Source: Candidatus Zhuqueibacterota bacterium (GTDB taxonomy: Bacteria > Zhuqueibacterota > Zhuqueibacteria > Residuimicrobiales > Residuimicrobiaceae). From it: DNA of 33,926 nucleotides. The notes beneath the pieces were generated by a model, which saw nothing but the letters and a program-made list of their open reading frames with translations, made no database searches and was not told the DNA's origin. Made by a program: the position numbers and the translations under genes. The stretch lies in NCBI GenBank assembly GCA_963169875.1, contig CAUJEL010000038.1, positions 1 through 33,926 of the forward strand, written 5' to 3'. Shown here piece after piece: positions 14,332-28,292 of this stretch. Every line of letters starts with the position of its first letter. Position 1 is the stretch's first letter.

Positions 14332-17271
14332 ATGCTTCGGGTATTTGTCTCGATTCTCATTCTTTTGGGATCACAGAGCGTTTCGTTTTCGGCTGATCTG
14401 ATCCGAATTCAACCTGTTACCGATAAAATATTGGTGGCGGAATTCTCCGAAGGCCACATCGACTATTTTGGCCTCGGTCAGACCCGCCTGAGCGGTAACC
14501 GCGTCTATTACTCCAAACTGGATGTTGCCGCCGCTGTTGCCCCTGGCAATTATTCAATCTCCAGCCCGGACGATGCACACTACCAGCCCGCCCAATCCCC
14601 CGTCACCATCGGACGCAAATCCAAAGGCCATGATTTCAACGATCTCGCCGCCGCCCCCATGCCCAGGGTGCTCCTGCGGCACTGGATATACCTCGAGCTG
14701 CCCTTCACCATGGAACAGGGCAAAACCTACTCTGTGCAACTCAAAAATCTCGCCTCGAACGTCAATGTCCATACATTTGCATTCGATGCGAAAACGCTGC
14801 GCTCACCCGCCATCCATGTCAACCAGATCGCCATGATGCCCCAGGCGCCGAAATATGCCTATCTGTCGCACTGGATGGGTTCCTTTGACACGTTTGAACA
14901 TCCCTCCGGCGCGCTCAATCTGGACCGCTACTATTATGCGCCGTTCCAGGTCGTACGTATTTCGGATGATGCGGTTGTCTTCTCCGGCCGCGTCGACCGC
15001 CAGCGTCTGAAAAACGCACAGGATTTCACCAGCGCCACCTTCAGCAACGCCAACATGACGCGCGCTGATGTGTTCCAGTGCGATTTTTCCGCGCTGACGA
15101 CGCCCGGCGAATATCGTCTCGTCGTTGAAAAAATGGGCTGCTCTTTTCCCTTTCATATCAGCGCGGATGCCTATCGCGCCCCCTATCACTATACCTCCAG
15201 AGCCCTGTTCACGCAGCGCCAGGGCATCAACCGTGAAATCGAACCCGGCCTTGTCTATCCCCGCGATCATCGCACGGAAGACGGCATCGTGATGAAATAT
15301 TATCCAGACCTAAAAACCGAGGGCAATATTGATCCCGATATGGGCGTTGGAAACGTCACCGGGGTCTGGGGCTGGTACCATGACGCCGGCGACTGGGACA
15401 CCTATCCGGATCACTATGTCGTGCCCATGACCCTGCTGGCGCTGTATGACCTGAAACCGGAGAACTTTGGCGATGGCGACGTGGGGCCGAAATATCAGAC
15501 GGACAGCGCTGAACCCTGGATCGATGAAGGCCGCAACGGCATTCCCGATGTACTCGATGAGGCCATGTGGCTGATCCGCTATTACAAACGCACCAAAGAT
15601 GCGCTCATCGCCCAGGGATTCAGCACCGGCGGCGTCCCCGGCTATGCCGGCGTTGACGCCGGCGCGGAGAGCGGTACCGCCTCGTGGCGCGACAGACGCG
15701 TCATGGCCCTCAAAGGCGCGGATTCGGTGATGATGTCCTATCGCTACGCCGCCTGCGCCGCATATCTGTGCATCTGCCTGGATAAATTCCAGGGCGGCCT
15801 TCATCCCGACACTCCGGGCTGGCTTCTCGAAGCCCGCACCGCCTACGACTGGTCGCAGCGGCAAAACCAGGATGCCGACGCGGACATCAATCGCAGCCGC
15901 ATGATGGCTGCCGCGGCGCTGTATCGCTATACCGGCCATACCAATTATCAGGATGATTTCCGCCTCTGTAAAAGTAAAGACAAAGGCTGGAAATCGTACC
16001 TGTGGTTCATGCTCAACCCGTGGCATTTCACTGCGCTCATCTATGGCAACATACCCGATGGCCGTCCGGGCCTCGACATCGTCCTGCGGCAGCAGTGCAT
16101 CAATGATCTCGTCACCATGGCCAATCTCGAGACGGTGGAAACCGCCCGCGATCGGGGTTTTCGCTACGGCGCCTCACGCAGTATCATGCATATGCTCGGC
16201 GCCATGAGCACGCCCAAAATATTTCTGGCCGCTGCGGCTTATGAATTCACAGGCGAGAAGAAATTCCTCGATGCCTGTTACACCACCTGCGATTACTGCC
16301 TCGGCGGCAATCAACTGGATCTGGTCCGCGTCAGCGGCCTGGGCGAGAATAACGAGCAGCAGCCGTTTCACTGCGACTCCTGGTATCTCGTCGATTATAA
16401 CAGCCTGGTCTACACCAATCCCATCCTGCCGGGTTATGTCATTTATGACATGCATTACAACGGCGACTGGATGGCGGGCGAGGGCTGGGACTGGATCGGC
16501 GACGAAGATTACTCCCGCTCGACCGCCTTTCCCCCCATCGCCGATTTCCCCGACGCGGAGGCGCGCTTTCCCAATCGCTGGAGCATCGCGGGCAGCGAAT
16601 TCACCATCCAGCAGACCCAGAGCCAGGCCATCTTCGCCTACGGCTATCTCTGCGCCCCCTACAGCAGCGCCTATGTGCCCAATCAACGGCCGGAAATAGC
16701 GCTCAATCTGAAGGAAGATTCCGTCATAAAAACGGACAGCGTGGTGGTGTTGACGGTGACGGCCTCGGCGGATGTGCGGCGCGTGGAATATTATTATGAT
16801 TGGCATTTCATCGGGGAGAGCAGCGATTCGGCCACCAACTTTGGCTTTGCCTGGGACCTGGCCGATTACAAAATCATGCCCGGCAAGCGCCTCATCACGG
16901 CCAAGGCCTATGATGATCAAGGTGTGGAATCGAAACCAACGGAGGAAGGTGACAAATATGTGCTTATTGAGACGGCCTCGGCGGTGCAGGAAAAATCGCA
17001 GGAAGACGCGCGGTTCGACCTGAAAGGATGTTATCCCAATCCGGCCAATCCCAGCACGACCGTCTCTTTTTCCTTATCCCGGCACGGCTTCACCCGGGTT
17101 CGTCTCTATAACTGCCGCGGAGAAGAGGTGGCCGCGCCTCTGAATGCTGTGCTGGATGCCGGTTCACACGAGATCAGATTGCAGACCTCGCCCTTGCCTT
17201 CGGGCGTTTACTACTGCGTGCTGCGCCAGGAGGAGCGATATGACGTCAGCAAATTCGTGGTGCTCAGATAA
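14332..17271 (+). CDS. GH9 endoglucanase with T9SS sorting domain
   Basis: The 979-residue secreted enzyme has, in order: a signal peptide (1-20), an N-terminal beta-rich module (about 21-155), a CelD_N-type Ig-like domain (about 160-280, HVNQIAMMPQAPKYAYL to EYRLVVEK), the GH9 alpha/alpha-barrel (about 282-780), an Ig-like domain (about 785-880) and a T9SS type A sorting domain (895-979). GH9 enzymes cleave beta-1,4-glucans by inversion. The HDAGDWD motif gives the paired acids Asp351 and Asp354, and Glu756 in AGSEFTIQQTQSQAIF is the likely general acid. The sorting domain begins GCYPNPANPSTTVSF and ends SKFVVLR, so the protein is expected to cross the outer membrane by the type IX system. 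AAGGA lies before the ATG. The next gene is 63 bases downstream and carries the same type of tag. Confidence 0.92.
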   Translation: MLRVFVSILILLGSQSVSFSADLIRIQPVTDKILVAEFSEGHIDYFGLGQTRLSGNRVYYSKLDVAAAVAPGNYSISSPDDAHYQPAQSPVTIGRKSKGHDFNDLAAAPMPRVLLRHWIYLELPFTMEQGKTYSVQLKNLASNVNVHTFAFDAKTLRSPAIHVNQIAMMPQAPKYAYLSHWMGSFDTFEHPSGALNLDRYYYAPFQVVRISDDAVVFSGRVDRQRLKNAQDFTSATFSNANMTRADVFQCDFSALTTPGEYRLVVEKMGCSFPFHISADAYRAPYHYTSRALFTQRQGINREIEPGLVYPRDHRTEDGIVMKYYPDLKTEGNIDPDMGVGNVTGVWGWYHDAGDWDTYPDHYVVPMTLLALYDLKPENFGDGDVGPKYQTDSAEPWIDEGRNGIPDVLDEAMWLIRYYKRTKDALIAQGFSTGGVPGYAGVDAGAESGTASWRDRRVMALKGADSVMMSYRYAACAAYLCICLDKFQGGLHPDTPGWLLEARTAYDWSQRQNQDADADINRSRMMAAAALYRYTGHTNYQDDFRLCKSKDKGWKSYLWFMLNPWHFTALIYGNIPDGRPGLDIVLRQQCINDLVTMANLETVETARDRGFRYGASRSIMHMLGAMSTPKIFLAAAAYEFTGEKKFLDACYTTCDYCLGGNQLDLVRVSGLGENNEQQPFHCDSWYLVDYNSLVYTNPILPGYVIYDMHYNGDWMAGEGWDWIGDEDYSRSTAFPPIADFPDAEARFPNRWSIAGSEFTIQQTQSQAIFAYGYLCAPYSSAYVPNQRPEIALNLKEDSVIKTDSVVVLTVTASADVRRVEYYYDWHFIGESSDSATNFGFAWDLADYKIMPGKRLITAKAYDDQGVESKPTEEGDKYVLIETASAVQEKSQEDARFDLKGCYPNPANPSTTVSFSLSRHGFTRVRLYNCRGEEVAAPLNAVLDAGSHEIRLQTSPLPSGVYYCVLRQEERYDVSKFVVLR

Positions 17272-17334
17272 TTTCCTCGCATTTCCGTTGCTGGTGTATT
17301 CATCTTCATCGCAGAATGATTTCTGGAGGAGTAA

Positions 17335-19308
17335 ATGGATGACCTCTTTCCGCGTCGAACGGATCAGAGTACCAGTTCGCGCGTTCGCGTGGCGAAAAAG
17401 ACCATAGTTAGCCTGGCGCTCCTGACCACCCTCCTATATGGCCAAACCAATAACAGACTTGTAATCGGCACCAATATCTCCGGCCTCTCCGACTGGATGA
17501 CCGAAATGCCGTTCGTCGATGTCATGCACCATTGCCGTACATGGATGACCTCCAACAGCGTCTGGATCTCGGGCGGCAAGAACGAATGGGACACGGGATT
17601 CATCGCCCGCATCCCCAAGGACGAAAACGGCTATCCCCTGTCACTGCCATACCGCTTCGCCGAAGCGGAAACCCTGCAGGTGGTGCACACCATCTGGGCG
17701 GTTCTCGCCGGCTGGGCCGAAGGCATCTACACGCTGCTCTACGATGGCAGGGGCGACCTGGAATTCTGGGGCAGCATGACGCTCCTCAGCGAAGAGCCCG
17801 GACGCATCCGCATCAACATCAAACGGCCCGCGAATGAAGACGGCGTGCTCGGACTGAAAATCCTGCGCTCCGACAGCAGCGACCACATACGCAATTTGCG
17901 CCTGCTCATGCCGGGGACGGAAACGACTTATCAGACCATGCCGTACTACGCGGCGTGGTATGAGAAACTGCAGCCCTTCAAGGTCCTCCGCTTCATGGAC
18001 TGGGGCCAGACCAACAACTGGGGACATGACAACGCCTGGGAATGCTATGATCAGGATGACGACACCACCACAGCGCCCTGGAGCGCGCGCGCCCGATACG
18101 CAGACTATACCTGGGCCACCAACAAGGGCGTGCCCTACGAAGTGATGATCGATCTCTGCAACCGGCTGCAAGCGGATATGTGGATTTGCGTCCCCCATAA
18201 TGCCAGCGATGAGTACATCCGCGAGCTGGCGCTTCTGCTCAAGAACGATTTGAATCCGCAGTTAAAGATCTACGTAGAATACAGCAACGAGACCTGGAAC
18301 TGGATGTTCGGGCAGACGCAATGGTTGAACACGTTCGGCTGCGTCAAAAAGGGGATATCGTGGCCCGAAGGCATTGTACCCTATGTGCAAAACTGTCTCG
18401 ACATCTTTAGCGATGTTTTCAACGGCGAACTGACGCGGATCGTGCGCGTGGTCGGAGTGCAAACCTCCTGGCAGGATGTGAGTAACCGCATCGTCTTTAA
18501 TCTGCGGCCGGGCAGCTTTGACGCCCTTGCGCCCGCGGCTTACTTCGGTATCAGCGAAGCCGCGGACGCGGAGCTGGACGCCCTGGGCGCGGCGGCGACG
18601 GCTGCGGATATCGTCACGCGCGTCCGCGTCTCGCGGCGCCAGAACGAAGAGCCGTGGCTCGCTGCTCAAAAAAAAGAGATCGCGGACAAATTGGGCATCC
18701 CCATGCTCTATTACGAAGGCGGTCAGCATCTCACGCCGACACCGTTTGGCGAGGAGCCATCCTATGCTCAGGCGCTTTTGCATGTGCAGCGCGACACCGC
18801 CATATACAACCTCTATCGGGAATGGTTCGCGTTTCTCGAAACCCTGAACACGCCGGGGCGGGAGAGCCTGTTTATGAATTTCTCGTTCATCGGCCAGCGC
18901 AGCGCCCGCTACGGCAGCTGGGGCATCCTCGAGAGCGTCACCCAGGACACCCTGGCCGTCCCGGCGCCCAAGTATCGCGCCATCAAAAACTACCTGGCGT
19001 CGTTTCAAACCGGCCTTCAGCAAAGGACACCCGGAATGGTGAATCCCGTAGCGCGGTTGGCGCAAAATTATCCCAATCCCTTTAATCCCGGAACCACCAT
19101 CTCCTTTTATCTGTCTCATCGCGCGTCGGTGACGTTAAAGATCGTGGATGCGATTGGCCGGGAAGTGGCCCGGCTGGTGGATGAGGAGCTGGAGGCGGGA
19201 ACCCACACCCGGCAGTGGTCAGCGGATAAAATGCCCGCCGGGATTTATTATTACACCCTGCAGGCGGGGGCGCACCGGGAGAGCAAAAAACTGCTGTTGC
19301 TGCATTAG
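17335..19308 (+). CDS. Clan GH-A-like secreted protein with T9SS tag
   Basis: This 657-residue protein has a hydrophobic signal (about 20-37), a central domain of about 530 residues and a T9SS type A domain (575-657, LAQNYPNPFNPGTT...GIYYYTL). I cannot assign the central domain to a named glycosidase family. It has features of a clan GH-A TIM barrel: KIYVEYSNETWNW puts Asn318-Glu319 where the acid/base of that clan follows strand 4, and MLYYEGGQH puts Glu461 where the nucleophile follows strand 7. The spacing of 142 residues is reasonable. GGAGGAG lies four to five bases before the ATG at 17335. A GTG at 17389 would give a shorter signal peptide but has no ribosome site. It follows the GH9 gene by 63 bases, so a role in cellulose or hemicellulose attack is likely. 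Confidence 0.85.
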   Translation: MDDLFPRRTDQSTSSRVRVAKKTIVSLALLTTLLYGQTNNRLVIGTNISGLSDWMTEMPFVDVMHHCRTWMTSNSVWISGGKNEWDTGFIARIPKDENGYPLSLPYRFAEAETLQVVHTIWAVLAGWAEGIYTLLYDGRGDLEFWGSMTLLSEEPGRIRINIKRPANEDGVLGLKILRSDSSDHIRNLRLLMPGTETTYQTMPYYAAWYEKLQPFKVLRFMDWGQTNNWGHDNAWECYDQDDDTTTAPWSARARYADYTWATNKGVPYEVMIDLCNRLQADMWICVPHNASDEYIRELALLLKNDLNPQLKIYVEYSNETWNWMFGQTQWLNTFGCVKKGISWPEGIVPYVQNCLDIFSDVFNGELTRIVRVVGVQTSWQDVSNRIVFNLRPGSFDALAPAAYFGISEAADAELDALGAAATAADIVTRVRVSRRQNEEPWLAAQKKEIADKLGIPMLYYEGGQHLTPTPFGEEPSYAQALLHVQRDTAIYNLYREWFAFLETLNTPGRESLFMNFSFIGQRSARYGSWGILESVTQDTLAVPAPKYRAIKNYLASFQTGLQQRTPGMVNPVARLAQNYPNPFNPGTTISFYLSHRASVTLKIVDAIGREVARLVDEELEAGTHTRQWSADKMPAGIYYYTLQAGAHRESKKLLLLH

Positions 19309-21273: not shown

Positions 21274-22122
21274 ATGAAGAAAGCCGTTTTCCTTTTCCTG
21301 GTCGTTCTCACGGCGACCGTGTTCGCTGCGCAATCGGTGATTGTCGAGGCTGTGGGCACGGCGAGCATGGGCGATACAAAAAGCAAAAAAGAAACCATGG
21401 AGGAGGCCAAAGCCAATGCCATCAGAAACGCAAGCGAAAATGCGGGCATTTATATTTCTTCAGAGACCAAAATCAAGAATTACGTACTGGAAAGCGATCT
21501 CGTCGAGGCGTTCGCCAGGGCGGAGGTCCGGATTCTGAGCGAAAACGGGGAATGGTTCAGGGATGAAACCCTGGGCGACAGCTATCGCGTGACGATACAA
21601 GCGGAAGTGACCCCGGACGAACTGAAGGAGAAACCCGGAATGAGCGCTGCGGCCGAGGATCCGGGCGCTCCGTTGAAGGTCACCCTTTGGGCTGAAAAAA
21701 ACCAGGTCGAATTCAGGGCCGGTGAAACGATCAGGCTCTATCTCAAAGGCAACAAACCGTTTTTTGCCCGCATCGTCTACCTGCAAAATGACGGGACCCA
21801 GGTGCAACTGCTGCCCAATCCCTACCGGCAAGAAAATTATTTCAACGGCGGCACCATCTATACCCTGCCTTCGGGGCCGGATCAGTATGAGTTGACCGTC
21901 GCGCCGCCCTTCGGATCCGAAAAGATCATACTCTACGCCAGCACGGCCGAACTGGGCGACGTCGCGGTCGAGGACGCCGGCGCCGTTTATTCCATCGCAG
22001 AGAAGATCAAGGATACCGGCGTCAAGACCAGAGGCATCAAAATCACCAAAAAGCAAGGCAAGAGCGCGTCCGCCGCCGAGTTCGACGAGCAGGCCCTGGA
22101 AATTGTCACCAGCGAGCAATAG
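21274..22122 (+). CDS. Secreted DUF4384 protein, partner of caspase gene
   Basis: The 282-residue protein has a signal peptide (1-19, ending VFAAQ), an N-terminal domain (about 20-115) with alternating strands and an alanine-rich helix (ETMEEAKANAIRNASENAGI), like the LPP20/FlgT N-terminal fold, and a DUF4384 domain at about 133-230 (PLKVTLWAEKNQVEFRAGETIRLYL...FARIVYLQNDGTQVQLLPN). The C-terminal tail is charged. It is probably periplasmic or surface-exposed. GGGAG precedes the ATG. The next gene, a beta-propeller/caspase protein, starts 35 bases downstream. DUF4384 often occurs with or fused to caspase-like domains, so the two likely work together. The biochemical role of DUF4384 is unknown. 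Confidence 0.85.
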   Translation: MKKAVFLFLVVLTATVFAAQSVIVEAVGTASMGDTKSKKETMEEAKANAIRNASENAGIYISSETKIKNYVLESDLVEAFARAEVRILSENGEWFRDETLGDSYRVTIQAEVTPDELKEKPGMSAAAEDPGAPLKVTLWAEKNQVEFRAGETIRLYLKGNKPFFARIVYLQNDGTQVQLLPNPYRQENYFNGGTIYTLPSGPDQYELTVAPPFGSEKIILYASTAELGDVAVEDAGAVYSIAEKIKDTGVKTRGIKITKKQGKSASAAEFDEQALEIVTSEQ

Positions 22123-22157
22123 AATTCATCAACAATGAGCGAATACCGAGGTGTTGC

Positions 22158-24929
22158 GTGTCCACAAGAATGATGCCCGTAAAAATGTTTTTCCCCGTCC
22201 TGTTATCGCTGTTCTTCCTTCAACCCGCTGTTGCGGCGGATTCGCTGCAGGTATTCGTCCAGACCGGCCATGCAACGGGCGTGGACAAAATGACCACATC
22301 ACCGGACGGCCGGTTTCTGGTCAGTGCCGAAGGACAGGGCTATCAGAAGATATGGGAAATATCCAGCGGCCGGGAAATCAGAACGCTAAAATTTGGCGAT
22401 ACCGTTTCAGGCTTGCATTTTATCGACAATGACCGGTTTGTCATTCTTGGCGCCAACCGCGGCGAGATTTATAACTGCAGCGGCGAAAAACTCGAGACCC
22501 TGACGCTGCCTGCGGTGACTTCTTATGGCGAAAGATCGCTCACCCCCAATCTCCGCTATTTGCTGCTATCGAGTGCCGGCGGTAAATTAAATTTTGTCGA
22601 TATGAAAGACGCTTCCACGATCCGGCTGCCGGAGGATAAAGACGATTACAACTCGCCTCTGCTCAATCTGGGGAATGGCTTCTACGGTTTCTTTTACGAT
22701 GCCAGCCGCGACGATCAAAGCGACATCAGCAGAATCGGAAATACCGCCTATGTCATCTATGATCAGAATCTCGTGGCGCAAAAAAGAGGCCTGATAAAAG
22801 GGCAAATCTATATCGGGGCCAATCTCAAGGTGGACAAGGAATTAAAGCATGTCTACAAGAATTGGGATTTTATCCAAACCCCCACCATCACCGCCTATGA
22901 TCTGGATACCGGACTGGCCATCCGCAGCCTGCCGGGAAATAAAAGGGGCCAATTCGACCTGTTGCCGGACAATAGAATGGTTCTTCGTGTTTTCAACACC
23001 ACGGACGGCCAGCTCGATCTGTCGAGAAATGTGGATGTCTTTCTCTATGAATGGCTGGATAATGGCGGATATAAGGAAAAAAAACTTGCCTTCACCAGGC
23101 TCTATTTTGCCGCTCCGCTGCACATCACCGGTCAGGGACAGATCATTCTCAATACCCTGAAAGAGCAGAACAAGGACGCCGTCACGGTTCTGAAACTGTA
23201 CGACATTGCCGCCGGGGTGGAGATACGCACCTTCGGAGTCAATCCCATCGTGTTTCAGCAAATCGCTTATGCCGACGGCCGGCTCCTGAATTGGGGCAAG
23301 AATTTTCATCGTACCGGCAACACCATGCAGGTCTGGTACAATTATAATATCTGGGACCTTACAACGGCCGGCCTTTCGGTTTTCAATTTCTCCCACAGCA
23401 CCGGGGATGTGTATCAGGATCAGAATTACAAATGGATTATCAGAAATGCCAAAACGTTTTACAGTCATGTACCGTCAGAGTTTTTCGATGGCCCCTATGA
23501 AGGCCGCCATAAAGAGTACTTTGACACTGCCGTGGGGTATCCGGTCATATTCAAGAGCTCTTCCAGCGATCTGCTGTCCTTTGATCTGGATACCATTCTG
23601 CCCAAGGCCACCCATATCTCCGTGAAAAAGGCATCGGATAAATCGGAAGCGGCGCGGTTCTATGCGTTTTCGGACGGCGAATGGATCGTCATGACCCCGG
23701 AAGGATATTTCAACGCCTCGGCGAATGGGGCCAGATATATCAATATCAGAATCGGAAATCAGGTCTACAGCATCAATAATTTTTACGAGAAATTCTATAA
23801 TCCCGCTTATGTCGCCGCCGTGCTTCAGGGGCGTGAAGCGGAACCCGTCGCGGACATCAGAAAAGGCGTAGCCTTGCCGCCCCAGGTGCGAATCATCTCC
23901 CCGGAAACAAATACCACTTGTAAAAACGAAGTCCTGGAAATCCACGTATCGGCAAAAGATATGGGCGGCGGGATTGACGAGATCCGGCTCTATCACAACG
24001 GCAAGGCGATTGGTGAAGACACCCGGGGCGTCAAGCTCACAGCAAAAACCGGAGAGAGCAGCAAATCCTATTCGGTGGCGCTGGTCGACGGGATCAACGT
24101 CTTCCGGGCCGTGGGCTTCAGCCGCGATCGCACCGAATCGAATCCCTCCGAAATCGTCGTCACACTGCTGGCGCCGGAAAAAGAGATTTCCCTGTATGTC
24201 CTTGCTGTCGGGATCAACAACTATAAAAATCCCGCGCTGGATTTAAATTATGCCGAACCGGACGCCAAGTCAGTCGCCGGTTTTTTTCAGACCGGCGGGA
24301 GCCGGCTGTTTAAAACTGTCGTCATCAAGGATATTTACAACGAAGCCGCCACCAAGGCGGGCATTCTGTCGATGATGGCGGAGCTTTCCAGCACCAACCC
24401 GCAGGATGCGGTTCTGATCTATCTGGCGGGGCACGGGGAGAATATTGACGAGAACTGGTATTTCATTCCCCACGAATTGGTCTATCCGGAGCGGGAAGAG
24501 GATGTCAAGGCAAAAGCCATCTCTTCCGAGGAACTTGCGTCCGCGATTAAAAACATCACCGCGCAGAAAATTCTGGTGCTCATCGACGCCTGTAAATCCG
24601 GCGCGGTGCTGGTGGCATTCCGGGGTTTTGAGGATCGCAAGGCGCTGTCGCAGTTGTCCCGCGCGACCGGGGTGCACATCGTGGCGGCCTCTTCAAAAGA
24701 CCAGTTCGCGGCAGAAGTCAAGGATCTCGGCCACGGCGTCTTTACCTATATACTGCTCGAGGGGTTGAAAGGCAAAGCGGCGGGCGCGGGTGAGAATGTC
24801 ACGGTGCGGAAGCTGATGGGGTATCTCGAAGAGCAGCTTCCCGAATTGACCAAACGATATAAACAGGAAGCGCAGTACCCGGTGGTGGATTCGCGGGGCA
24901 TGGATTTTCCCCTGGTGCAGGGCAAATAG
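22158..24929 (+). CDS. Secreted beta-propeller protein with C-terminal caspase domain
   Basis: The 923-residue protein starts at GTG (GAGGTG four bases upstream; ATGs at 22170, 22173 or 22185 are alternatives). It has a signal peptide (MFFPVLLSLFFLQPAVAAD). Residues about 30-540 form WD40-like/propeller repeats, for example TGHATGVDKMTTSPDGRFLV and YQKIWEISSGREIRTL. An Ig-like domain follows (about 575-675, PPQVRIISPETN...). The C-terminus (about 678-915) is a peptidase C14 caspase-like domain with catalytic His759 in YLAGHGE and Cys812 in IDACKSG, both intact. Such proteins cleave after acidic or basic residues and are activated by partner domains. The propeller is the likely sensor. Location outside the cytoplasm is inferred from the signal peptide and argues against a classical intracellular cell-death role. 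Confidence 0.9.
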   Translation: MSTRMMPVKMFFPVLLSLFFLQPAVAADSLQVFVQTGHATGVDKMTTSPDGRFLVSAEGQGYQKIWEISSGREIRTLKFGDTVSGLHFIDNDRFVILGANRGEIYNCSGEKLETLTLPAVTSYGERSLTPNLRYLLLSSAGGKLNFVDMKDASTIRLPEDKDDYNSPLLNLGNGFYGFFYDASRDDQSDISRIGNTAYVIYDQNLVAQKRGLIKGQIYIGANLKVDKELKHVYKNWDFIQTPTITAYDLDTGLAIRSLPGNKRGQFDLLPDNRMVLRVFNTTDGQLDLSRNVDVFLYEWLDNGGYKEKKLAFTRLYFAAPLHITGQGQIILNTLKEQNKDAVTVLKLYDIAAGVEIRTFGVNPIVFQQIAYADGRLLNWGKNFHRTGNTMQVWYNYNIWDLTTAGLSVFNFSHSTGDVYQDQNYKWIIRNAKTFYSHVPSEFFDGPYEGRHKEYFDTAVGYPVIFKSSSSDLLSFDLDTILPKATHISVKKASDKSEAARFYAFSDGEWIVMTPEGYFNASANGARYINIRIGNQVYSINNFYEKFYNPAYVAAVLQGREAEPVADIRKGVALPPQVRIISPETNTTCKNEVLEIHVSAKDMGGGIDEIRLYHNGKAIGEDTRGVKLTAKTGESSKSYSVALVDGINVFRAVGFSRDRTESNPSEIVVTLLAPEKEISLYVLAVGINNYKNPALDLNYAEPDAKSVAGFFQTGGSRLFKTVVIKDIYNEAATKAGILSMMAELSSTNPQDAVLIYLAGHGENIDENWYFIPHELVYPEREEDVKAKAISSEELASAIKNITAQKILVLIDACKSGAVLVAFRGFEDRKALSQLSRATGVHIVAASSKDQFAAEVKDLGHGVFTYILLEGLKGKAAGAGENVTVRKLMGYLEEQLPELTKRYKQEAQYPVVDSRGMDFPLVQGK

Positions 24930-26084: not shown

Positions 26085-26669
26085 ATGAAAATAACCGTCA
26101 ACACCAACCTCGCTGGATACGCGTTTCACATGGATGAAGATGCGTATCAACATCTCCGCCACTACCTCGTCCGGCTCGAAAAAGAGTTCTCGGGCGAAGA
26201 GGGTTCACAGGAGATCATCGCCGACATCGAAGCCCGCATGGCGGAACTGTTCAAGTTGCGGCTGAACAAGTACAAGCAGGTCATCTCTTTGGAGGATATC
26301 GAGGAGGTCCTGACCGTCCTCGGTTCCCCGGAAGCCATCAGCGGCAACGGCGCCGAAGATAAAGCGTTCCATCGCACCGCACCGCGCCGCTTCTATCGCG
26401 ATCCCGATGGCCGCATCTTCGGCGGCGTCTGCGCCGGACTCGCCGCCTACTTTTCCATCAATCCGCTGTGGATCCGGATCCTCTTCGTCATCCTGGTCCT
26501 GGCCGGCAGTTTCGGCATCTGGCTCTACCTCATTCTCTGGCTCGTCCTGCCCGAGGCGCTCACCACCGCGCAAAAACTGGAGATGCGCGGCGCGCCGGTG
26601 ACCATCACCAACATCAAGCAGGCCGTGAAAGACGAATTTGTGGCCGTGAAGAAAAAAATCAATCTGTAA
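26085..26669 (+). CDS. PspC-domain membrane protein
   Basis: The 194-residue protein has two parts. Residues 1-80 form an acidic N-terminal domain (MKITVNTNLAGYAFHMDEDA...IADIEARMAELF) that also occurs in the protein two genes downstream. Residues about 101-158 form a PspC domain (RRFYRDPDGRIFGGVCAGLAAYF followed by one hydrophobic segment ending LWLVLPEAL). A basic C-terminal tail ends KKKINL. PspC is the inner-membrane stress component of the phage-shock-protein response in Proteobacteria, and in FCB bacteria such proteins commonly sit with PadR regulators, as here. The function is envelope-stress related by family, but the ligand is unknown. AGAAGG lies before the ATG. The PadR gene starts 34 bases downstream. 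Confidence 0.88.
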   Translation: MKITVNTNLAGYAFHMDEDAYQHLRHYLVRLEKEFSGEEGSQEIIADIEARMAELFKLRLNKYKQVISLEDIEEVLTVLGSPEAISGNGAEDKAFHRTAPRRFYRDPDGRIFGGVCAGLAAYFSINPLWIRILFVILVLAGSFGIWLYLILWLVLPEALTTAQKLEMRGAPVTITNIKQAVKDEFVAVKKKINL

Positions 26670-26703
26670 CATAACCGAACCTTTCAATAAATCGAGTGCA
26701 GCC

Positions 26704-27048
26704 ATGAACACAGAAAACACCAAAGCGCAGATGCGCAAGGGCATCCTTGAGTATTGCATTTTAGCCATACTCTCCCGGGGCTCCGCGTATGCCGTGGACA
26801 TCATCAATGAGTTGAGGAAAGCCGAATTGATCGTCGTTGAAGGCACCCTCTATCCGCTGCTGACGCGGCAAAAGAACGCCGGACTCCTCAGCTACCGCTG
26901 GGAAGAGTCGCCGCAGGGCCCGCCGCGCAAGTACTATGAACTCACCGAGCAGGGTAACAACTACCTCACCGACCTCGACCAGGCCTGGCAGGAACTCATC
27001 GATTCCGTCAATCAGCTGCGTGGCAACAAGAAGGGCAGGAAGATATGA
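26704..27048 (+). CDS. PadR-family transcriptional regulator
   Basis: This 114-residue winged-helix regulator carries the PadR pattern: RKGILEYCILAILSRGSAYAVDIINEL (about 11-37), VVEGTLYPLLTRQKNAGLLSYRW (about 44-66) and PPRKYYELTEQG (about 73-84), followed by a short dimerisation helix. PadR proteins usually repress a neighbouring membrane-stress or efflux operon. Its place between two genes sharing an N-terminal domain suggests that it controls this operon, including itself. Its stop overlaps the next start by four bases (ATGA), which implies translational coupling with the downstream membrane protein. Confidence 0.92.
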   Translation: MNTENTKAQMRKGILEYCILAILSRGSAYAVDIINELRKAELIVVEGTLYPLLTRQKNAGLLSYRWEESPQGPPRKYYELTEQGNNYLTDLDQAWQELIDSVNQLRGNKKGRKI

Positions 27049-28292
27049 AAAAAACACTGAATATAAACATCGCCGGGCAGCTCTTCAGCGCCGACGAGGA
27101 GGCGTATCAGATCCTGTCGCGCTATCTGGAACATGTTGCGGCCAAGTTCCGCGGCGAACCCGGGGGCGAAGAGACCCTCGCCGACATCGAATCGCGCATC
27201 GCCGAGATTTTTGGCGGCGGGAGCGAGCCGCCGCGTCTGGTCTCCAGGGAGATGGTCAACGAGATGATCGAAACCATGGGCGCGCCGGAAGCGTATTACG
27301 AGGCCGGCGGTGCCGAAGAGACACCGCGCAAATCCATGTACGATCCCGACAGCCCGATCGCCCGGGCCGGCCAGGCTTTCTCGGCGCTGCGCAAGGCGGG
27401 GGGCATGGTGCTCTCCAAAATCCTGCGCTTTTTCGCGGTCACGCTGGGTGTGGGATTTTCGCTGTTTGGTTTCCTTCTCCTGGTCGTTTTTGTCCTGTTG
27501 TTTTTCTTCAACGGCACGCTGTTGCCGGCCCTGATCAGAGATCCGGGCATCGCCAATGTGCCCATGCTGTTATCCATTGCGCTCAACAGCACCATGGCGA
27601 ATACAATGTGGACGCTGGCCGCAATCGTCATCCTAATCCCGCTGGCGGCGCTCAGCTATCTCGGCATCAAGCTGATCTTCAAGATCAAGGCAGGGCCCAA
27701 GCTGATCCGGGTCCTTCTCTTTACCACCTGGATCGTGTCCTTGTGCGTGCTGGGGGTCATGCTGGTATTGCGCTTTTCCGATTATGCGAATCACGAATGG
27801 AGTGAACAAAAGTTGGCTTTGCAGCCTGCCCCCAAAACGGTTTGGGTCGCCCCTTTAAAAAAGATCGCGGACGCCGGGTGGGATGAAAAGGCGATGGTGG
27901 AGCAGTTCAATTTCTGGAAGAACGCCAAGACCGGGCAGCTTTTTGTCACGGCGGATTTGGGGATTTGGGGCAGCGACACCACCTCGGCATGGATTGCCCT
28001 GGACAAGCGGGCGCGCGGCAAAACGCGATCCGACGCCAGTGCCCATCTGCGCAAGATGGATTTCACCTGGAAATTTTCGCGGGATACGCTTTATCTCGAC
28101 GAGTATTTTTCCCTGCCCGCCGGCGAACCCTGGAACGGCGCCATCTTGATGGTCGATCTGCGCGTGCCCGAAGGCACGGTAATCAAGCCGGTAAGCGGCG
28201 TCTCGCTGGCCAACTGGCGTTTCCGGATTAACAATCCGGAGGCCAAGGCCTTCCGCATCGAGGATGGCTATGCGCGGGCGGTGGAGGAGTAA
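27045..28292 (+). CDS. Membrane protein with PspC-operon N-terminal domain
   Basis: The 415-residue protein begins with the same type of acidic domain as the PspC protein upstream (NINIAGQLFSADEEAYQILSRYL...LADIESRIAEIF, residues about 4-58), but no PspC domain follows. Instead there are about three to four hydrophobic segments (about 126-160, 178-220, 225-245) and a soluble C-terminal domain (about 255-410) with alternating strands that ends near a DLRVPEGTVIKPVSG stretch, reminiscent of DUF2807-like beta-solenoid domains. That last assignment is weak. The start overlaps the PadR gene by four bases, so the two are translationally coupled. It is likely the effector or sensor membrane component of this envelope-stress operon. 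Confidence 0.82.
   Translation: MKKTLNINIAGQLFSADEEAYQILSRYLEHVAAKFRGEPGGEETLADIESRIAEIFGGGSEPPRLVSREMVNEMIETMGAPEAYYEAGGAEETPRKSMYDPDSPIARAGQAFSALRKAGGMVLSKILRFFAVTLGVGFSLFGFLLLVVFVLLFFFNGTLLPALIRDPGIANVPMLLSIALNSTMANTMWTLAAIVILIPLAALSYLGIKLIFKIKAGPKLIRVLLFTTWIVSLCVLGVMLVLRFSDYANHEWSEQKLALQPAPKTVWVAPLKKIADAGWDEKAMVEQFNFWKNAKTGQLFVTADLGIWGSDTTSAWIALDKRARGKTRSDASAHLRKMDFTWKFSRDTLYLDEYFSLPAGEPWNGAILMVDLRVPEGTVIKPVSGVSLANWRFRINNPEAKAFRIEDGYARAVEE

Follow-up and report, generated by a model that had tools for sequence, protein, structure and literature searches.

The window analysed here, 33,926 nucleotides of contig CAUJEL010000038.1 from a Candidatus Zhuqueibacterota genome, carries adjacent genes for a DUF4384 protein (the partner) and a 923-residue caspase-family protein of family Peptidase_C14 (C14) with an N-terminal beta-propeller. 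In relatives of the caspase protein the protease core is nearly constant and the propeller has been replaced, while partner genes recur next to such proteases in several phyla. The reading modestly favoured here is that of a propeller-gated, probably Arg-specific envelope surveillance protease with a shared exported partner. The role of prokaryotic caspase homologues is debated mostly in terms of cytoplasmic cell death; this family would present a protease outside the cytoplasm that keeps a fixed catalytic part while its recognition parts can be exchanged, and for which a partner and a cut site can be proposed.

Constant protease core, replaced propeller and predicted export

Between the window protein and its counterparts at two Delongbacteria-type loci (L113, L115), identity is 78-79% in the caspase domain, 73% in the immunoglobulin-like (Ig) domain and 63-67% in the linker domain, but 12-21% in the propeller; the partners are 60-65% identical. 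Among 14 clade proteins (the window protein, three from the partner scan and ten from the caspase search; 91 pairs), 12 pairs have cores at least 80% identical, and of these nine have propellers at 35% or less and three at 45% or more. Because some equal-core pairs keep similar propellers, the pattern favours replacement rather than uniformly fast change. In the pair L224/L225, the first 120 columns are 45-70% identical and most of the propeller only 10-37%, after which identity rises in a sharp step to 80-100% in the core.

The original prediction offered the two genes as a possible sensor/protease unit. The gene association is conserved (see below), but the better candidate for the sensor is the propeller of the protease itself: it is more likely than the DUF4384 protein to be the recognition part, mainly because propellers are replaced while core and partner stay. 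The DUF4384 protein as sensor was set aside in view of its conservation relative to the propeller in the comparison with L113 and L115.

The predicted order of signal peptide, propeller, Ig-like domain and C-terminal caspase is borne out by Pfam, fold matches and a hydropathy rule. Peptidase_C14 matches residues 681-912 (E 2.7e-14, 53.8 bits against a cut-off of 21.4), which together with the dyad places the protein in C14. In the AlphaFold2 model (mean predicted local distance difference test, pLDDT, 71.8; poor at about 365-484), the best fold match of residues 677-922 is the MALT1 paracaspase (Z 20.6, 209 residues, root-mean-square deviation 3.2), with Geobacter GSU0716 at Z 20.0. The stretch from about residue 33 to 352 resembles WD40 propellers (Z about 15). 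The propeller is weak in Pfam (best E 2.3e-4, below the curated cut-off), and a self-BLAST for repeated blades is uninformative, finding nothing either here or in the L182 protein with its strong Pfam WD40 match. No Pfam family matches the linker domain.

The residues and numbering of the His759/Cys812 dyad, predicted to be intact, agree with alignments of relatives. A check for homologues lacking either residue found the dyad intact in all 23 relatives within the phylum that could be aligned (26 matching open reading frames, ORFs, including that of the window; two unaligned in the domain) and in 42 of the 43 cross-phylum relatives having both positions, six more rows being without one or both. 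At L134 (2320-6561), a 1413-residue paralogue encoded upstream of an active caspase no longer has its catalytic His and is likely a pseudo-protease.

Signal-like starts and transmembrane (TM)-like segments were called by our own hydropathy rule. Among complete sequences, 34 of 35 proteases and 66 of 72 partners have a signal-like start, as do all six CHAT proteins, versus 150 of 469 background ORFs. A later TM-like segment is present in none of the 35 proteases, and the partner has none past its signal-like start. At partner positions 31 and 103, 70 of 80 sequences have Cys/Cys and four (the window partner among them) have Ser/Ser; mixed pairs never occur, and six sequences are gapped. This both-or-neither pattern is as a disulphide requires and argues for export. 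Export of both proteins is thus predicted with support from these features, in line with the original placement of a caspase-like protease outside the cytoplasm.

The partner matches DUF4384 in Pfam (E 2.3e-22, 79.3 bits against a cut-off of 27), as do all 37 members of the partner alignment. FlgT_N falls below its cut-off (26.7 versus 28.8 bits), outside Pfam membership, and is matched by the window protein alone among the 37. The LPP20/FlgT_N label therefore rests on a middling fold match of the AlphaFold2 model (mean pLDDT 80.9) to Lpp20 (5ok8, Z 7.7), with Tip-alpha at Z 7.6, a level that may reflect a common arrangement. A sequence search of solved structures gave no relative of the partner.

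Association of protease and partner across genomes

In the source genome (5.0 Mb, 95.6% complete), C14 occurs at two places and DUF4384 at three. Both C14 genes adjoin DUF4384 genes, since the second, which lies on contig C119 and encodes a caspase-PEGA protein, comes directly after the other two DUF4384 genes; the row there (L036, 7856-12503) comprises the two DUF4384 proteins, the caspase-PEGA protein and a 287-residue protein without a Pfam match. Across 82 genomes of the phylum, DUF4384 was located at 57 places in 33 genomes and C14 at 77 places in 39 genomes, the latter raised to 91 by 14 from a protein search. Of the 57 DUF4384 places, 26 have a C14 gene within 6 kb, always on the same strand, against about 0.2 expected, and the two domains are fused at L061. 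The phylum's closest caspase (genome G015) is encoded downstream of its own DUF4384 partner, within an array of four propeller proteins. At L037 (8334-10430), a propeller protein without an alignable caspase domain lies within a caspase array.

A query alignment of eight partners gave 80 named loci, 73 of which hold a partner ORF above 200 bits. The 80 loci come from Delongbacteria, Syntrophales and other Desulfobacterota, Nitrospirota, Nitrospinota and a few Gammaproteobacteria. A protease is found within 6 kb in 33 of the 73 (27 C14, four CHAT, two both), on the partner's strand in 30 of the 33 and at most 200 nt away in 22 of the 73. In the nearest 500 bp around the partner, proteases reach a density of 0.388 per kb, versus 0.016-0.028 per kb beyond 1.5 kb. 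The window partner clusters with Delongbacteria-type loci (support 100/100), as does the window caspase (SH-aLRT 88, quick tree), and neither DUF4384 nor C14 was found in a same-genus genome; the two together fit movement of the pair between phyla by transfer, or possibly loss elsewhere. Among five own-family relatives searched, two (G052 and G053) lack both families.

From the caspase side, a search for the core (residues 486-923) covered 149 genomes belonging to the same order as a Smithella genome (G084) reached via L147, and 37 of them have it at E 1e-30 or better. The partner (above 200 bits) is present in 30 of these 37 genomes and in 21 of the 112 others (odds ratio 18.6, p 1.2e-11). 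In seven of the 40 core loci (L248, 920-7419; L244, 5165-11427; L237, L240, L243, L254 and L258), two caspase types stand in tandem, one with Thr-Arg-Gly and the other with Ser-Gly-Leu-Tyr-Asp-Ala-Arg after the catalytic Cys, their genes overlapping by 4 nt in L248 and L244; a two-step cascade is possible.

The linkage that the original prediction looked for is therefore real as an association but not obligatory, and several counts weigh against a dedicated pair. Neither outcome named as refuting the original prediction, loss of the catalytic residues in homologues or lack of any conserved linkage, holds outright. The partner lies within 6 kb in 3 of the 40 core loci (the core ORF was not recovered by script in two, and several contigs are short), which rules out an obligatory operon, and 24 of the 91 phylum caspase places have DUF4384 within 6 kb. 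Forty of the 73 partner loci have no C14 or CHAT gene within 6 kb (22 of the 40 with less than 3 kb of flank on one side), and nine of 39 unlinked genomes have no C14 at all. An FGE-sulfatase control is also associated with the partner (odds ratio 6.4), so that shared ancestry explains part of the co-occurrence; it is a poor control, being itself linked with caspases (fused in L114). As adjacency is rare from the caspase side, the partner, if it acts with these proteases, would do so mostly in trans.

A rival reading takes the partner for a general LPP20-like envelope protein, going with Mla-type transport genes, its place beside caspases being an operon habit without contact. Besides the many loci without a protease, this reading has on its side four loci where the partner adjoins genes for an MlaE permease, an ABC ATPase and MlaD (L129, 3794-6118; L159, 3111-5003; L182, 7306-9654; L138, 9139-12520); three of the four also hold a caspase, and the Mla genes are Pfam-confirmed for L182 only. 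The partner also stands beside TPR-CHAT proteases in six of the 73 loci and, given both kinds of neighbour, is not specific to this caspase. Yet mere habit accounts poorly for several observations: the partner repeatedly adjoins proteases of both the C14 and the CHAT family, its linkage state changes at least 19 times along its tree, and it is found fused to C14 and co-occurring with it in trans. We hold this reading to be rather improbable.

Exported TPR-CHAT proteases directly adjoin the partner at L118 (1348-3627), which also has a Csx29 match below cut-off, and at L153 (10911-14072). At ten loci, mostly from Syntrophales (L130, L135, L146, L147, L148, L151, L155, L156, L162, L178), the partner occupies a fixed spot adjoining dihydroorotate-dehydrogenase-like genes (identified by eye), with no nearby protease.

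Proposed mechanism, alternatives and related systems

In the favoured reading, the exported caspase protein would sense an envelope ligand or damaged protein through its propeller, which would gate the C-terminal caspase-fold protease. Asp702 is conserved in 21 of 21 aligned proteases and Asp810 in 20 of 21; we take these to be the pocket residues of the caspase fold. An acidic pocket of the kind used to recognise basic-P1 orthocaspases is present, and cleavage after Arg is the most likely prediction. C14 members other than caspases cleave after Arg or Lys, and an orthocaspase processes itself (PMC5756287). Self-maturation would here probably proceed by a cut at Arg822-Gly823. Of 53 Syntrophales core ORFs of at least 400 residues, 48 yielded the Cys motif by pattern and 47 of these the His motif; Arg-Gly follows the catalytic Cys in 39 of the 48, often as Thr-Arg-Gly, at varying distance and loop length. 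The LPP20-like/DUF4384 protein, encoded next to the protease or, in other genomes, often elsewhere, would be the common partner, most likely a regulator or first substrate.

Most of the 80 partner sequences read Thr-Arg-Gly around Arg253, and the match with the caspase-loop motif makes this segment a candidate, by hypothesis only, for a docking or cut site. Docking of the partner through it seems to us rather doubtful. Arg253 is just as invariant in partners without a protease nearby as in those with one, which rules out a cut site kept only beside proteases, and the conserved pattern could simply be a strand; position 822 is Arg in 13 and Ser in eight rows of the 21-row alignment. All three weigh against the favoured reading. 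A wider, speculative and fairly unlikely extension is an immune-like system of the envelope, in which interchangeable propeller receptors on a near-invariant exported caspase, several per genome and sometimes with a tandem second caspase type, would all report via one shared partner cut at Thr-Arg-Gly, the tripeptide also present in the activation loop of many of the caspases.

Surface-protein maturation, by which a constitutive exported Arg protease would trim exported proteins with the propeller as a substrate-docking platform, is unlikely. Gingipains and PorU trim exported proteins in type IX secretion in this way, and the genome has at least 150 type IX sorting-tail matches, two just upstream of the pair in the window. 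The caspase protein itself, however, has no Por_Secre_tail match in Pfam and so lacks the type IX sorting domain; the best-matching relatives are in Delongbacteria, Desulfobacterota and Nitrospirota, G052 and G053 do without both families, and replaced propellers are easier to reconcile with the recognition of varied ligands than with a single set of housekeeping substrates.

An effector of cell death or kin conflict, attacking its own envelope or neighbours upon propeller recognition, is quite unlikely. It would agree with a variable recognition part on a constant effector, with the fact that PADLOC and NCBIfam class the nearest caspase models as defence or conflict genes, and with fratricide as suggested for exported caspase homologues in PMC3501461. 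Against it, Pfam found no defence gene among the ten main window proteins scanned; the EACC1-associated caspase model NF047832 scores 71.1 bits, short of its cut-off of 140; and the protein has no NACHT or other NTPase domain among its Pfam matches, which sets it apart from STAND/NLR-type proteins, nor a later TM segment by the hydropathy rule. The defence-island reading fails, PADLOC giving only its generic caspase model and a weak BovA for one CHAT relative. The original prediction is supported in part: a caspase-like protease outside the cytoplasm, a dyad kept in relatives and an association with the DUF4384 gene all hold, but the sensor role is better assigned to the propeller.

Several known systems share parts of this design. 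MALT1 also has an Ig domain next to a caspase domain but no propeller; it is a cytoplasmic eukaryotic scaffold and prefers Arg. TPR-CHAT (Csx29-like) proteins likewise combine a repeat sensor with a clan CD protease, and some exported ones adjoin the same partner; their sensor is TPR rather than propeller and their protease CHAT rather than C14, and the Csx29 model cut-off is missed. Orthocaspases and WD40-bearing C14 proteins have the p20 caspase fold, the His/Cys dyad and WD40 repeats, some with an N-terminal hydrophobic segment that may be a signal peptide (PMC3501461, PMC8283722, PMC5756287), and export of prokaryotic homologues was suspected already in 2012 (PMC3501461). Unlike these, the caspase here is C-terminal behind propeller, linker and Ig domain, exported without a TM segment and accompanied by a separate exported partner. 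DUF4384 is fused to 23 of 473 cyanobacterial orthocaspases in Table 1 of PMC8283722, and such fusions include Gln-Cys forms (PMC6426788); the same two domains form one chain there and two genes here, and the window DUF4384 protein differs in its LPP20-like domain and signal peptide. The two-gene EACC1-caspase conflict systems described in PMC7159879 resemble the window pair in having a small 5' gene and a caspase gene with variable fused domains. There, EACC1 is a TM protein and the caspase is N-terminal with variable C-terminal domains, unlike the window pair. The literature search found no description of a two-gene pairing of caspase and DUF4384 partner or of replaced propellers, and nothing joining TPR-CHAT with the periplasm. 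The pair is best seen as a variant of orthocaspase systems.

Feature coordinates and neighbouring genes

The positions of the two genes, their order on one strand and the 35 bases between partner stop and caspase start were correctly predicted (Table 1).

Table 1. Features of the DUF4384 partner gene and the caspase gene in the window.
Feature	Position	Strand	Remarks
DUF4384 partner gene	21274..22122	+	282 aa, ATG start; LPP20/FlgT_N-like N-terminal domain and DUF4384 (Ig-like)
Partner signal-peptide-like start, residues 1-19	21274..21330	+	hydropathy rule; cleavage point by eye
Partner N-terminal alpha/beta domain, residues 22-114	21337..21615	+	FlgT_N below cut-off; Lpp20 fold match
DUF4384 domain, residues 147-224	21712..21945	+	Pfam; Ig/MG-like sandwich in model
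Partner Thr252-Arg253-Gly254	22027..22035	+	Arg253 invariant in 80/80; low-confidence loop in model; candidate docking/cut site
GAGG, likely ribosome binding site of caspase gene	22148..22151	+	6 nt before GTG; read by eye
Caspase gene	22158..24929	+	923 aa, GTG start; signal peptide, propeller, TPEGY linker domain, Ig, caspase
Caspase-protein signal-peptide-like start, residues 1-26	22158..22235	+	hydropathy rule; cleavage point by eye
WD40-type beta-propeller, residues ~33-362	22254..23243	+	variable part; fold match, identity comparisons
Conserved linker domain, residues 486-560	23613..23837	+	E497, W509, T513, G516, S521 invariant in 21/21
Big_7 Ig domain, residues 575-624	23880..24029	+	Pfam E 5e-8
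Caspase (Peptidase_C14) domain, residues 677-923	24186..24926	+	Pfam, fold match
Catalytic His759	24432..24434	+	alignments
Catalytic Cys812	24591..24593	+	alignments
Arg822-Gly823	24621..24626	+	loop after Cys812; candidate self-processing site

Upstream of the pair, at 14332-19308, a GH9-type protein and a second protein are encoded, both with type IX sorting tails. PspC-type envelope stress genes lie on the same strand at 26085-28292, about 1.1 kb downstream of the caspase gene; in L113 the downstream genes are different.

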